A stretch of DNA of 64,000 nt from Cryphonectria parasitica EP155 (taxonomy: Eukaryota; Ascomycota; Sordariomycetes; Diaporthales; Cryphonectriaceae), in NCBI RefSeq assembly GCF_011745365.1, contig NW_024468912.1, positions 1,054,001-1,118,000 of the forward strand, read 5' to 3'. Position numbers and translations under genes: made by a program. The notes beneath the pieces were generated by a model. It saw nothing but the letters and a program-made list of their open reading frames with translations, was not told where the DNA came from and ran no database searches. This document shows, piece after piece, positions 11,144 to 64,000 of the stretch. The first letter of the stretch is position 1. The number at the start of each line of letters is the position of its first letter.

Positions 11144-14052
11144 TTAACGAATGACATCCCCCTCCTTCTCGATCCCTTCCAGGTCTTCTAGTATGTCACT
11201 CCCACCGAGAAGCCCTGCACCACCAACCGTTGCCTTCTTTCCGCCTGACCACACCTCGTGAAACTTGATGCTCTCGTCACTGGCAGCGACGACTACGCAC
11301 CCCTCCATGGCGGTGCGGTTTCGCCTCTTCTCCCTCTCGCGTCTCTCTCGGTCTCGATCTCTTGGGTGTCCTGTCGCATCTCTGGCAGCCCTGTAATCTG
11401 GTGGACCTTGCGGGTAAGGTATTGCGTACAGTGCCCGGTGTTCCCCTTCCTACGGGATAGCCGCCACCTGCCGGCACTCAGGCCAAGAGAATACGGCGAT
11501 CCGATAAGGATGGTCTGGCTGGGCATACCCGAATGTTGCAGCGATCTCTCGCCGTGTTGTGCTCCATATGAGGCTCGTCACCTGCGCGTGCACCGCGATG
11601 GTAGCCAGTGCCACCCCGGACGTGGTGTGGTAGAAGTGGATGCACTTGTCGTGAGACCCACCCCCAGTGGCAACGAGCCCATCCCGCCAAGGGCAAAAGG
11701 CGATGGCTTTCACAGCAGCCGTATGCTCCCACCGATGCTTGGCCTGCCGCTCACCAATGATGCGTGGATTCCCCGACGTATTAGAGAGTGGGTGTCGGAA
11801 GGAATCTGACGCGGCCGAGATATTGGCAGGTAAGGCTGGCGAATAACGGGGCGTAGCACGCTCGGCGGTGATACGGCTGAGGTCCCAGAGGCGAGTGTTG
11901 GTATCAGAGCGAAGAAAACGCGCAAAGGGTGAGGTTATGGGCATGCTCGACAGCCGATCATCGATCGACCCGAAGGTCACGGGCTGGCTTGTGCTGCTAG
12001 ACGAAGACAATGATGTCTGCCGTTGTGTAGTTATAGAAGCACCAGGCCCAGGAAGAAGCAACGGCGACTGCCTCCCTGTTGTAAAGCCGGTCATTAAGTG
12101 TCGTAGCTCAAGTTGTTCGCCAGTGGTCTGGGGCGGAATCGGTTCCCGATATGCAGACAAAGTATTCTCCACTTCTCGGTCAGGATCGAGCTCCTCCGGT
12201 GGTGCAGCAACATTCTGAGCCTCAAAGAGGAAACATATATTGTCGTTGCCTCCCGTGGCGAACATGCTGCCGCTCGGCGACCACGAAAGCCCACAGATCT
12301 GCTGTGTATGAGCTGTGATGTACGCGAGGCACTGAACACTGCCTCGCCAGTTGTGGCGATACGTCTCCCATGACCGGGGCCACTCGACAGCGTAGTAAAA
12401 AACATTGCCGTGCTCGTCGCCGACGAGGAGATCCTCATTCTCGACAAGGTGGCCGGGATTGTAAGGGTTGACTGATGGGCGCAGAGAGACGGTGGGCTTC
12501 CAGCTGACACAGGCAACCGGGGCTTCTTCGACGTGTGGAGCAAATCTGAACCGAGGATATTGCCGGTCATATAGTGTTGGGGCATCCCAAAGCGACATGA
12601 GGTTCAAGATTCCGTTCGATCGACCGTACGCGAGGATGCACTTCTTGCCCTGAGCCGATGAAAAATCAAGCGTGGTCAGCCATGAGATATCACTGAGCCC
12701 GTTGTCCTCAAGCGTCTGGACACCCGTGAGCTCCGACCAACTATAAAGTCTCGCACCAAGACCCACAGCCAAGGTCTGGCAGACAGGATCGAAGGCTAAT
12801 ATGGAACAATAGAAATCATCTCGCAGACTAGGTGCATCGAGGACCTTGAACGGAGCAACTGGTAGCGTCCGCAGCTCTGGTGCTTGTTTGGTCGACTTCT
12901 TCGTAGGATGGTCTTCTCTGACTAGTTGCGTACCGTTCCAATATGTCTTGCGCCCTGACTGCCGGTTGAGCATCTTCGGCTGCTTCTCCGCCATGGTTGA
13001 GAAGCGATCGAGACCAAGTATTCTCGATGACTAGTCGATCTCGAAGGCTGACGCGAGGCGGGCCTCATGTTTCTCGGCATCTTCTTCATCTTTGGGCCGT
13101 GACGGGGGAAACTGAGTATTGAACATGGGAGCATTGGTGCCACTCGTAAAAAGACCACCCCGACCGTCTTCGATGGCTCCATGACTGGGAACAACGGCCC
13201 CGATGGACCAGATACTGCTACTGAACTACAATCAATGTCAGTCACGACAAACACAGTCAAACACGATCTACATGAGGGATCTGGCTCAGACCAAGCACAT
13301 CATTTTAATTCTGTCAAGGCCACGTCTTCCTCCTCGGAACAAAAGACAGGGAGAGAGAGGGAGGGAGAACATTCGAGAGAACTCACCACTCTTCTGTCTG
13401 TCTCATCGACCGAGGCTGAATCAAGCACTGTTCCACTCTGGCTTGGCCGTCTTGACTTTCGAGCCTCCGTTGGGGAAGGTGGCAGAGCCCGCCGTCTGAA
13501 GCAAAAAGGGTCAGGAGCATCTTGGTTGTGACGCACCAGTCGTTCAGATGGCGAGAGATCTTGCAAAGCACGGGTAGTCTGCAGCCTCTCTGACCGAGGT
13601 GTCCTCTCATCTCTCGTCGGTACAAATCGATCTAGAGCTTTCAGTGATCCTGCTCTAGAACCATTGATAGCAGTGTTGTCAGATCCATGGCGATGGTGGG
13701 TGGATTTGGGCCGAGTCATGACTGGATAGGAATCGGTTCGTGAAATCCGTCTTCTTGATACACTGGGAAGAGTAGCGAACTTCCCACGTTCGATGCTTGG
13801 CGAGGAGAAGATTTCTTTTTCTGGCGTATTTTGTCCTGATGTCTCAGAGTCTGACTCTTCTGAGCTGGTCCCATCGTATGTTTTTGTACTAATAGACAAA
13901 GCCGTCCGGCCGAGACGGTATCTCGGAATTGACCGTATCGGTGACGTCTCGAGCGAGCCATACCCGGAGTCTGCGGAGCGGCCGGTGCGGCCTGGAGGTT
14001 CAAGACAAACTTGTTGCGTGCGCGGAGTAACAGGCGTGCTTGGTCCGGCCAT
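11144..14052 (-). CDS. AMA1: Meiosis-specific APC/C activator Ama1 (Cdc20/Fizzy family), with two in-frame TAG codons
   Basis: Exon 1 is 13387-14052 (222 codons, start MAGPSTPVTPRTQ); exon 2 is 11144-13225 (694 codons including TAA). The intron (GTGAGT...TAG, phase 0) joins DRRV to FSSSIWSIGAVVP. A C-box (DRFVP, residues 141-145) precedes a WD40 propeller (about 330-890), as in Cdc20/Cdh1/Ama1 proteins that recruit substrates to the anaphase-promoting complex. In this otherwise open frame TAG occurs at codon 287 (13033-13031) and codon 814 (11452-11450). Family sequence continues in frame after both: EGEHRALYAIPYP follows the second, then MEGCVVVAASDESIKFHEVW, the usual Ama1 C-terminus. Translated literally, the first stop truncates the protein before the propeller. 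Recoding by A-to-I editing is the favoured explanation; nonsense or RIP mutation is the alternative. Family assignment is strong. Confidence 0.9.
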
Positions 14053-49176: not shown

Positions 49177-51001
49177 TCATTGCAGTGCCGAGGGGATAGG
49201 ATCCTCGTGCTTGGCCGTGCTGCCCTTGCCGCGCCACGTACTGACGGCAGCGATCTTAGCGTCCCACCTCTGCTCGTCTGTGCCGTATGCCCGGGGGGTC
49301 AGCTTGATCAGCGTGTGTAGGGGCACGTGCATCCACGGGCTCTTAGCCTGGTCGCGCTTCATAAAGTACGCGTAGATGCACCGCAGCACCGCCTGGTGTG
49401 TCACAATCAGGATGTCTTCGGACCTTTCCAGCTCCATGATGATAGGCTCCAGCCGGATCACCACGTCGCGGTAGGACTCGCCGCCGCGGTATCGGTAGTT
49501 GTACTTGTCCTCGTCACGTGCCTCAAAGTCCTCCGGGAACTGATCCTTGATCTGCTGGTAGGTCATGCCGTCGCATGCACCTGCGTCCAGCTCGTCGAGA
49601 GCTTTCCACTGCAGCTGATTGTAGTGCTTGGGCAGAAATCGCGCGGTGGCGATGGTCCGCTTCAATGTGGACGTCCAGACCGTGAGGGGACGATCATCCT
49701 GTGGGCATGGTGTGAGCAACGTGCACCAAAGGGAATCAAGGCAATAGGGAGTATTTTCTTCCGTTCTTCATTTTACCTTTCTTTTCATTGTTTATGGAAT
49801 GACAAGAAAGGGAAGAAGAAAGAGTAGTTACTTACACCCACTGATTCGCGGACCAATTCAGGAAGCTTGCGTGCGTACTGTTCCCCGCGGGGTGACAGCA
49901 GCGCATCGCCTCCAATTCGCCCATCCAGGTTGTACATGGACTCGCCGTGCTGGGAGAATGGAACCACGTTAGTAATGCCAAGACAAAACCCCTCAGCTGT
50001 AGACCTGTAGGGAACGACCAAAAAAACAGAGAAAACGCACCCGTGACAGCCATACAGACCGGGGTCTGATGTGCAGGTTCATGAGGTAGTAGACGACCCG
50101 GCTCTGCAGGTAGTCCTGGATACGGTTGATGATGACCTGTTTGCCGACATCCATGATCTTCAGATAGGTGAGATGCTCCTCGTCACCATCCTCGTTGACG
50201 GACTTGTATATCTTTTCGTAGTTTCGAATGCGGTTGCGGAAGTCGAGCGCGGCCTGCTCTGGGTCCTGGCCCTTGTAGTCCGGGCTTGTGGTCTTAACGT
50301 CTCTTATATTTGCCATGATCAGGTTCTCGTCATCGCACTTGGACTCGACATAGATGACCTCGATGCCGGCCTTTGAACAGATCTCGAGGATCCACTTGCG
50401 CCGCTCCTTGGTCGAGTTGGTGGCATCCAGTATGGCCACGACGCCGTTCTCGGTCTTGAACCACCTCAACATGTCGGCCACCGCCGCCTCAGCGGCCGCC
50501 TTCCTCTGCCGCTCACCCTCCACGTTGGTTGTATCGAAGAAGTCGGCGGTGGGTTGGGCTGCGGCCTTGCGACGGTAGCTGCCGACGTTGAAGGTCTGAG
50601 AGGGTATGGAAAGCCATTGGAGGTATCTCTGGGCTGCAGCAGCGACGGGTGTTAGATTGCTCGTGTCCAAAGCTAGGTCTTCACAGCTTCCGTCGCCCGG
50701 GCAGACAGAACAGTGGTGGAGGGTTGGGGGTGTCTCAGCGGATTGGTGTGCTATACAATATCACCAGACAAAAACGGCGTCAATTGCAACGAAATCAAGG
50801 CATGGGTTGCGGGAGCAAGACAGGATGACGACACACAGGAGAGAGGAAAATGGGGCAGCACAGTGATACGAAGGAGGGGGAGAACTATTTACCCTTTTGT
50901 GCAATGTAGCTTTTACCTCGGGCTGGCAAGCCCACCATGACCACGCAGATACGCGTGTCCTCCACCTGGACGCCTATCCCATTAGCCTTCGCAGGAGCCA
51001 T
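49177..51001 (-). CDS. Bifunctional 6-phosphofructo-2-kinase / fructose-2,6-bisphosphatase
   Basis: Exons are 50893-51001, 50041-50633, 49836-49949 and 49177-49698, giving 445 residues. The kinase half has a Walker A motif (GLPARGKSYIA) and SIPSQTFNVGSYRRK; splicing joins IAQK to AQRYLQWL. The phosphatase half has the phosphohistidine motif SRHGESMYNLDGRIGGD, formed across the third intron, and the second catalytic His in ILIVTHQAVLRC. Both active sites look intact, so the protein should both make and degrade fructose-2,6-bisphosphate, the allosteric switch of glycolysis and gluconeogenesis. The start is the ATG at 51001 (MAPAKANGIGVQVEDTRIC). Assignment is firm; the net direction of activity cannot be told from sequence. 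Confidence 0.93.
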
Positions 51002-51925
51002 GACTGGCCGCGGATTGTGGAATAGACAGCTGGATGCCGAGAATATTGCGAAATCATAGAGAGGCTGGCGGAGGGAAGCTGAGAAGGACGCGAGATGGAC
51101 TCGTGCGTGCGCGCGCAGAACAATGTTTGAGGTATGCGGTTTTTCAGAAAACAAATAAGACAAAAGATCGGGATTTGCAGGGTGAGCTTGGTGATTGGTA
51201 TGATCGCGTGCGTTTTCGAGCTGCAGCTATGGAGCGAGGATGGATTTTGTAAAGTTGGAGAAAAGATGCATGCAGGAGGGGTGTTTGCGGCTACTACTGT
51301 AGCTACGCAATCGCAAGCCCAATGGCGGCAAGAAAAGGGACTTTGACACCAAAGTACTCGGGACTGCGTTATGATGTATCGGGTGTGGTGGGGTCTGCGC
51401 CTGCCCTTCTTGCGGTTGTCTCCTCGCAGCAACGGGCGGGTGGAACTCTTTTTTTGGTACTTGTAGAGGGAACAATGCGAGAGTAGGGAAAAGACGGCCT
51501 GAAAAGCCACAGGGCTGATGCTTGATCGACGGACAAGGGAGGGCAGTAACGGAGACTTGTGGCCAAGGGTTGATCGATGTACTGTGGTAGACGCCTGGGA
51601 AAACGTAGGTGGAAGAAGAAAAAGCCACCAAGGCTGTCCTCGTTGTTGAAATTTTGTATAAAAAGGAAAAGTTCGGAGGAGACAGAAAGCAGGGAGGTAT
51701 TAAAAGAAGAAAAGAAAAGAGAAAGAGAATAAAAAAGTAAGAGCAAGAGGAAAAGAAAAGAGGACTAGCTTGTGATTATGACAGCAGGAGAGAAGGAGGG
51801 AAAGAGGGAGCGGGGTGCGCTGGCGGAACAGACGGTGAGCGTGAGCTTGAGTGATTCCAACAATCAATGCAGTTCAGATAATGACGAGAGCTTTGTCTCT
51901 TTCCTCCCCCAGGATGTGAAGGCAT

Positions 51926-62924: not shown

Positions 62925-64000
62925 TCACGCCCGGGAACAAAACCCGCAAATGAAAATATGCCACCACTTCCGCCTGTCTTTCCCATCGTCCTGAGTCTCT
63001 TTCCTCCTAGTCTCTAAGTGCTGCTGACTCAAGTCCTCGGCTACAGGTTGAAGGCCCGCCGTCTTACTCTGATGTTGGATTAACTCCAAAGGCTCGTTAG
63101 TTGGCGTTGAGGGTTGCAACTCTGGATGACCTTGCCGCTTTGCCAATGTGTCGTCACTCCCCGGGCTTGCAGTCTTGTTTTTGGGAGCACCGGTGGAAAC
63201 TGAAATCTTGTTGGTATCTTCCTGTGCGAATTTCACCACCTTTTCGTTGTGTCCGAAGTCCTGGTTTGGAGTGGCTGGCGGTGACTGAACAGTGTCATTC
63301 GAGGTTCGATCCACTACTTCGTCCACTAAGGGGGGGAAGCGAACGTCAGAGTCTCCTGAGTCCATTTCTGGTCGATCGTTGGTTGGTTGAACAGAGAACT
63401 CCGAGGCATCTGTGTAAACACGATTTGGTTTGGTGCCTGGAATAGGCTCCACGGAGTATTCCTTGCTGCGTATGCACTTCTCATGGATAGTCTTCAACTT
63501 CTCGACTACCTGGTCGCATGTCGCTCTTTCGTCAGGGTGCATCCTAAGCAATTTGAGTTCGATCAGGTCAAGAACATCAACAAGGAATTGCGAGATTTTT
63601 GGGTCATCTCGAAGTCTGGCGTATTGCTACAAAAGCAAAAAGTCAGTCCGCGATATTATTCGATGTCCTTTGAGATAGTGTGCCCAAGCCACGGGTTCGC
63701 GCTGTTGCACTATGCACCTCACCTTGACGACGGACTTCTTTAACTTGGCGCTGGGAAATGTCTGTCCGTTAGCTGCCTTTGTCTCCACGCTGAAATAAAC
63801 ATCCTCTTTGAAAGGAACGCTTTTGTGTTCTTCGGTCCGCTCGCGAGAGAACCCGTCCCAAGCTTTGAATCCTTTGAGATACCATATAGAGAACTCAAGA
63901 AGAACACAGCCCCAAGTCCAGATATCGAAGCTCTGTGTAATCTCATCGCCAATGTCATACTCCGGAGGCCTGTATGTTGGAGTTCGGGCAACATTGACTG
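62925..64000 (-). CDS. Fungal protein kinase-like protein B, partial
   Basis: The C-terminal part of a second kinase. The upstream exon runs from the right edge to 63723 and the last exon is 62925-63626, joined through a GTGAGG...TAG intron (VKLYS-type edge restored as SVVK/QYARLRDD). The visible kinase C-lobe reads RTPTYRPPEYDIGDEITQSF followed by DIWTWGCVLLEFSIWYLKGF, so the activation segment ends in PPE like kinase A. After HPDERATCDQVVEKL comes a long polar tail (about 170 residues) ending in a hydrophobic, aromatic/Cys-rich tip (WWHIFICGFCSRA). The catalytic loop and N-lobe are outside the window. Its relation to kinase A by domain type is clear; overall similarity cannot be measured here. 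Confidence 0.8.

Follow-up and report, generated by a model that had tools for sequence, protein, structure and literature searches.

The AMA1 gene on the minus strand of the window (the whole 64-kb stretch of DNA that was analysed) is interrupted by two in-frame TAG codons, at codons 287 and 814. We estimate a probability of roughly 0.7 that this is an editing-dependent AMA1 gene, with two UAG stops at codons that would be new, both corrected in perithecia to give an Ama1 of 915 residues. The gene product would be Ama1, which activates the anaphase-promoting complex specifically in meiosis. As both stops are in the DNA, the unedited mRNA would be limited to at most a 286-residue piece lacking the WD40 propeller. 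In perithecia, the editing enzyme, the deaminase Tad2-Tad3-Ame1 (described in PMC11087585, where editing in yeast is reported), would act on the A of each UAG, and the resulting UIG would be read as UGG. This would restore a near-invariant Trp at residue 814 and place a Trp at 287, and the edited product would have all 915 residues, with the C-box, the propeller and the IR tail. The editing itself, its stage specificity, the enzyme involved and the editing of both sites on one mRNA are predicted here from the logic of the sequence, by which AMA1 would be grouped with genes already known to depend on editing, its two stops lying at new codons.

The AMA1 gene of the window

AMA1 exon 1 (13387-14052, minus strand) begins with the ATG at 14052 and includes codons 1-222, and exon 2 (11144-13225, minus strand) includes codons 223-915 and the terminal TAA at 11144-11146, and encodes a Cdc20-type WD40 propeller. 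Removal of the intron between them (13226-13386, minus strand; 161 nt, GTGAGT ... TGACTGACATTGATTGTAG) joins the two frames. The frame and the intron were read from the sequence, and the identical junction is found in the EP155 protein P0001. With these boundaries, the codon number 814 assigned to the stop in an earlier sequence-only reading is correct. That reading was also right that there is no frameshift, as the frame is intact through 915 codons, with only two internal stops, and ends with EGDVIR.

The predicted protein fits an Ama1-type APC/C activator in its propeller, its C-terminal IR and the sequence DRFVPTR in exon 1 (residues 141-147, 13612-13632, minus strand), which aligns with homologues and which we take to be a C-box-like motif with the role of a C-box. 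A piece of the protein without the tail matched the profile PF24807 with an E value of 7.5e-53 and 180.2 bits (curated cut-off 200), and Slp1, Cdh1 and Cdc20 chains were among the best PDB matches (E 4e-31 to 4e-30). The name Ama1 agrees with the source names of several of the homologues listed.

The best of 788 matches was P0001, which is annotated from Cryphonectria parasitica EP155 and has no mismatches to the window over the aligned residues. The fungus is almost certainly C. parasitica, the agent of chestnut blight. P0001 and the window possibly derive from one assembly, and hence P0001 does not confirm the bases independently. It lacks residues 281-290, 561-714 and 814-850, of which the first stretch leaves out TAG 287 and the third TAG 814. 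Residues 561-714, absent from the EP155 model, form a loop between propeller blades whose frame stays open through 154 codons. This loop is poorly conserved (about half in Diaporthales) and may be either exon or an in-frame intron. A structure model of codons 288-915 was set aside (mean pLDDT of 61, with most positions after codon 814 below 50).

The stop at codon 814

The TAG at codon 814 (11450-11452, minus strand) is CTA on the plus strand and the A to be edited is at 11451. Around it the frame reads ...SWPECRQVAAIP TAG EGEHRALYAIPYP... and stays open for 101 more codons, and the interruption of AMA1 described in the sequence-only reading is therefore real. The conserved coding sequence after the stop (11147-11449, minus strand) corresponds to codons 815-915 and ends with Ile-Arg, and a C-terminal IR is present in 184 of 199 listed homologues. 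Over residues 815-915, 81 to 95 of 101 residues are identical to those in 14 Diaporthales rows with Trp814 (77 of 97 for Diaporthe helianthi); P0015, the nearest relative, has 95 identical residues and Trp at 814. Over residues 715-813, identity to the same 14 rows is 93 to 99 of 99. Judged from these comparisons, conservation drops somewhat from the preceding part of the propeller to the tail, but is still far too high for the tail to be untranslated, unless the stop is very recent.

In the alignment to a Cdh1 chain of 493 residues, AMA1 residue 811 falls at residue 438, so that a stop at 814 would cut off the end of the propeller together with the IR tail. Binding to the APC/C needs both the C-box and the IR tail. 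Taken alone, a stop at a Trp codon is neither proof of editing nor striking, as TGG to TAG makes up 18 of the 328 single-base changes that would create a stop in the AMA1 coding sequence and 18 of the 81 that are transitions.

Codon 814 in homologues

An alignment was made with 199 different proteins from three protein searches (the best 120 of 788, 1016 and 1236 matches, respectively). It answers the question, raised in the sequence-only reading, of what stands at codon 814 in Ama1 orthologues: Trp is found in 178 of the 199 listed homologues, no other residue occurs, and 21 have no residue. UAG-to-UGG editing would bring back this same Trp. The 21 exceptions are made up of 12 gaps of 6-37 residues, seven proteins that end at exactly 813 and two that end earlier (734 and 799). 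Early C-terminal ends among all 199 are at 813 (seven proteins) and at 734, 799, 856 and 883 (one each). In the first 120 proteins listed, there were no gaps at residues 760-799, and at 814 there were gaps in 8 of 118.

The proteins ending at 813 are P0017 (on a 96-kb contig) and those of Diaporthe australafricana, Fusarium heterosporum, Fusarium sp. DS 682, Fusarium austroafricanum, Fusarium acuminatum and a Cosmosporella. Gaps over 814 were found in Cryphonectria EP155, a Coniella, Fusarium tricinctum, Fusarium beomiforme, five Xylaria or Nemania and three Lachnellula. The F. tricinctum protein, with a gap, and the F. acuminatum protein, with an early end, are identical at 544 of 546 shared residues, indicating that both outcomes can reflect one stop.

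For the trees, P0136 and P0165 were dropped (they end before the site), and rows with gaps were left out of the strict counts. From the 200 rows, 93 were used for a tree (a selection centred on Diaporthales and Hypocreales, with the site columns excluded), on which the strict stop state required seven changes, six of them forced by well-supported branches, or 11 changes if gaps are counted as stops. On a second tree, made by a faster method from 170 rows, the changes numbered seven with strict counting, 12 with gaps and 11 without Lachnellula. The three Lachnellula proteins (P0061, P0074 and P0119), from a genus in the Leotiomycetes, have a gap of only 6 residues over the Trp814 codon, which may be a misplaced real intron, and they were excluded from the last count for this reason. 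The numbers of changes do not separate gain from loss, and the Fusarium pattern may be one gain followed by a loss in the oxysporum-fujikuroi part. Stops at codon 814 look recurrent in Diaporthales and in relatives of Fusarium, and possibly also in Xylariales, as read from protein annotations and not from DNA. The signatures in other species may reflect TAG or another stop codon, and an inserted intron may account for some of them.

The Leotiomycetes were considered as an editing-free contrast class using the 160 proteins with an organism name, with classes assigned from general knowledge. This was not upheld. Stop-like signatures were found in 3 of 44 Leotiomycetes (all Lachnellula) versus 15 of 116 Sordariomycetes, which is not a significant difference (p 0.40), and ends at 813 in 0 of 44 versus 6 of 116 (p 0.19). 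In Botrytis, a member of the Leotiomycetes, genome-wide editing was not found, according to a review (PMC11156358).

The stop at codon 287

A further in-frame TAG, absent from the sequence-only reading, is at codon 287 (13031-13033, minus strand), with the A to be edited at 13032. A stop there would remove the entire propeller. The equivalent residue in the 199 listed homologues is Arg in 137 and Gln in 24 (161 together), and Trp, Cys, Ile, Leu and Pro in one each, with no residue in 33. The single Trp is in D. helianthi and the Cys in D. australafricana, and a path from Arg via Trp to TAG is possible. As an edited stop, codon 287 is less well supported than codon 814.

All 12 Diaporthales-clade proteins without a species label begin after residue 287, versus none of eight other such proteins (p 8e-6). 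However, 13 of 19 further label-free listed proteins, examined as a control, also begin after 287, 12 of them at 324-351, probably due to an intron there. The late starts are a hint that the 287 stop is common to other Diaporthales, a hint that the control weakens, and their use as proof of a stop throughout the Diaporthales was dropped. The predicted P0015 protein starts only at window residue 389 and is on a contig of 3.9 kb, and either an upstream stop or the end of the contig is possible.

Sequence context and RNA folding

The published preferences for editing are C or U at -2, U at -1, A or G at +1, +3 and +4, and G at +2 (PMC9600606). Codon 814 satisfies five of these six and is the sole UA among the 81 in the AMA1 mRNA with all four preferred downstream bases, a downstream context that recurs at 71 of the 1037 UAG of the window. 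Codon 287 satisfies four of the six, a score that is common in the AMA1 mRNA.

The sequence-only reading placed the A of codon 814 in a 7-nt loop closed by a CCC/GGG stem (CCC-GUAGGAA-GGG; 11444-11456, minus strand). The A is indeed in a hairpin loop when 15, 20 or 30 nt of flanking sequence are included, but the hairpin as drawn is weak and is not the minimum-energy form at the flank lengths for which folds were displayed, with alternative pairings of the same bases favoured, and it is lost with longer flanks. The probability that this A is unpaired was 0.18, 0.02 and 0.04 with 40, 60 and 100 nt of flank, respectively. The A of codon 287 is in a hairpin loop with 15-20 nt of flank only, and not with 30 nt. 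As a control, 30 of 80 UA and 3 of 13 UAG in the AMA1 mRNA were in hairpin loops with 30 nt of flank. As so many UA are looped and the fold shifts with the size of the sequence folded, the hairpin was rejected as proof of editing.

Alternative explanations

Alternative splicing could remove the stops via short in-frame introns, such as 11453-11343 in the EP155 model, leading to a slightly shorter protein. The statement in the sequence-only reading that no splice site removes the 814 stop is too strong, as 34 in-frame GT-AG pairs (40-250 nt, searched within 11300-11600) span codon 814, and one donor word, the donor-like GTAGGA, includes the TAG itself. The EP155 gene model makes this choice and skips codons 814-850, and in FgBUD14 one such stop is reported to be handled by both editing and splicing (PMC11156358). 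However, the EP155 gap at 814 would delete 37 conserved residues, and the one at 287 is of 10 codons (30 nt), which we judge to be below any plausible intron. No consensus donor was found in the in-frame GT-AG pairs across codon 287, and Trp-bearing relatives read straight through the site, including unspliced models such as P0007 and P0012 on long contigs. We consider splicing quite unlikely. Readthrough or suppression of the stops, giving a little full-length Ama1 with no editing, accounts equally well for the conserved frame beyond both stops, but it predicts neither Trp814 in relatives nor TAG at both sites. The bases that follow the two stops (UAG-G and UAG-U) do not form a readthrough motif known to us, which also counts against this explanation, and we regard it as the least likely of those considered.

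The shortened products could instead be real, namely an N-terminal piece and a propeller starting from Met299, with or without the tail. There is an in-frame Met at residue 299, after codon 287, the Diaporthales-clade gene calls begin after 287, and seven listed homologues are annotated as ending at 813. Against this, the conserved C-box and IR tail would be split between proteins or lost, and starts and ends of this sort are likewise known as annotation errors around an edited stop, which for CHE1 include an early stop, a late start and a false small intron (section 7 of PMC11169179). The annotation errors at the AMA1 stops match these kinds, and we count them in favour of editing. We regard real short products as improbable. 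It is similarly improbable that the gene is decaying or locally mutated in the sequenced strain, or that the stops are assembly errors. P0001 is perhaps not an independent check of the assembly, and Trp814 in P0015 indicates that the stop may be recent. However, decay or error does not fit with 915 codons that contain neither a frameshift nor a third stop, with two stops that are both TAG, or with other fungi that have the stop-like signature at codon 814. Editing of AMA1 in the window remains a prediction, for which the two internal stops, being UAG and not UAA or UGA and lying inside a conserved coding frame, are of the expected kind.

Comparison with known edited genes

In Fusarium graminearum, stop-correction editing is reported for PUK1 and about 70 more genes, including FgAMA1 (review PMC11156358), and FgAMA1 (FGRRES_10728) is among the targets first listed in PMC4817773. 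The statement in the sequence-only reading that F. graminearum AMA1 needs stop editing is thus documented in these sources. FgAMA1 is orthologous to the gene in the window, and its premature UAG is reported to be edited to UGG in perithecia, and FgAMA1 to be needed for ascospores. Editing is proven in F. graminearum, whereas for the AMA1 of the window it is predicted from sequence.

The interpretation in that reading is supported in part. Trp814 in relatives, the conserved tail and the stop editing of FgAMA1 agree with it. The further proposal, that this fungus uses the same switch, is not supported in that form: F. graminearum has Trp at 814, and the additional stop at 287, which editing would need to correct as well, had been omitted. 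The F. graminearum proteins (P0131, P0138, P0140 and P0157) carry Trp814 and Gln287 or the equivalent, and these are annotated proteins in which gaps would hide a stop elsewhere. Annotation gaps over the equivalent of Trp404 were found in 21 listed proteins, 20 of them from Fusarium. Seven of these gaps (in P0126, P0128, P0130, P0132, P0137, P0145 and P0146) end right after the codon, a pattern expected if gene prediction had used the AG of a TAG for splicing. From Trp at 814 and these gaps around Trp404, the edited codon of FgAMA1 is probably not 814 but the Trp404 equivalent, a third codon.

PUK1 of F. graminearum resembles the AMA1 of the window in having more than one UAG to edit for the full protein (PMC4817773, PMC11156358), but there the two are adjacent in a tandem UAGUAG, while those in the window are 527 codons apart. 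For CHE1 of F. graminearum and its zao relatives, a UAG in the orthologue yields the same annotation errors (PMC11169179). CHE1 differs in that its editing takes place in hyphae or upon virus infection, and its stop is described as conserved among close Fusarium species (PMC11169179, PMC12754623), whereas the stop-like state of AMA1 codon 814 is scattered over orders. Further background literature is found in PMC9499528, PMC12582100 and PMC13278821. Among the open-access matches listed, no title or beginning of an abstract reports editing in Cryphonectria or Diaporthales, and no report of AMA1 codon 814 stops in several orders was found among those matches.

Possible recurrence of stops in AMA1

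The recurrent stop at one Trp codon, though built on protein annotations, is a more interesting result than the predicted case of editing. AMA1 may have been targeted repeatedly, with Trp814 changed to UAG several times across Sordariomycetes (at least six changes on the tree) and other sites used elsewhere (Trp404 in Fusarium, 287 in Cryphonectria), the two stops in Cryphonectria being a double lock that limits Ama1 almost entirely to the fruiting body. We put this forward tentatively, at slightly less than even odds. If it is correct, repeated use of one codon would suggest selection for gating Ama1 and not mere relaxation. Whether restorative editing is adaptive or is tolerated damage is described as a debate that is still open (PMC12754623), for which repeated stops at a near-invariant Trp of one meiosis gene would constitute a natural replicate experiment. 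We also caution that automated AMA1 models are likely to be mistaken at codon 814 in a number of fungi.

Other frames interrupted by TAG in the window

A scan of the 64 kb for pairs of frames split by TAG, both members having 100 codons or more, recovered five pairs, one of which is AMA1 codon 814. Codon 287 was missed, as the stretch upstream of it is only 64 codons. The pairs at +36223 and -45771 had no Pfam match. The TAG at -63627 is in a protein-kinase-like gene fragment (62925-63998, minus strand) and was discarded as it appears to terminate an intron. The TAG at -51227, also discarded, is in a frame (50888-51775, minus strand) upstream of the start of a 6-phosphofructo-2-kinase, and appears to be an ordinary, leader-like sequence.
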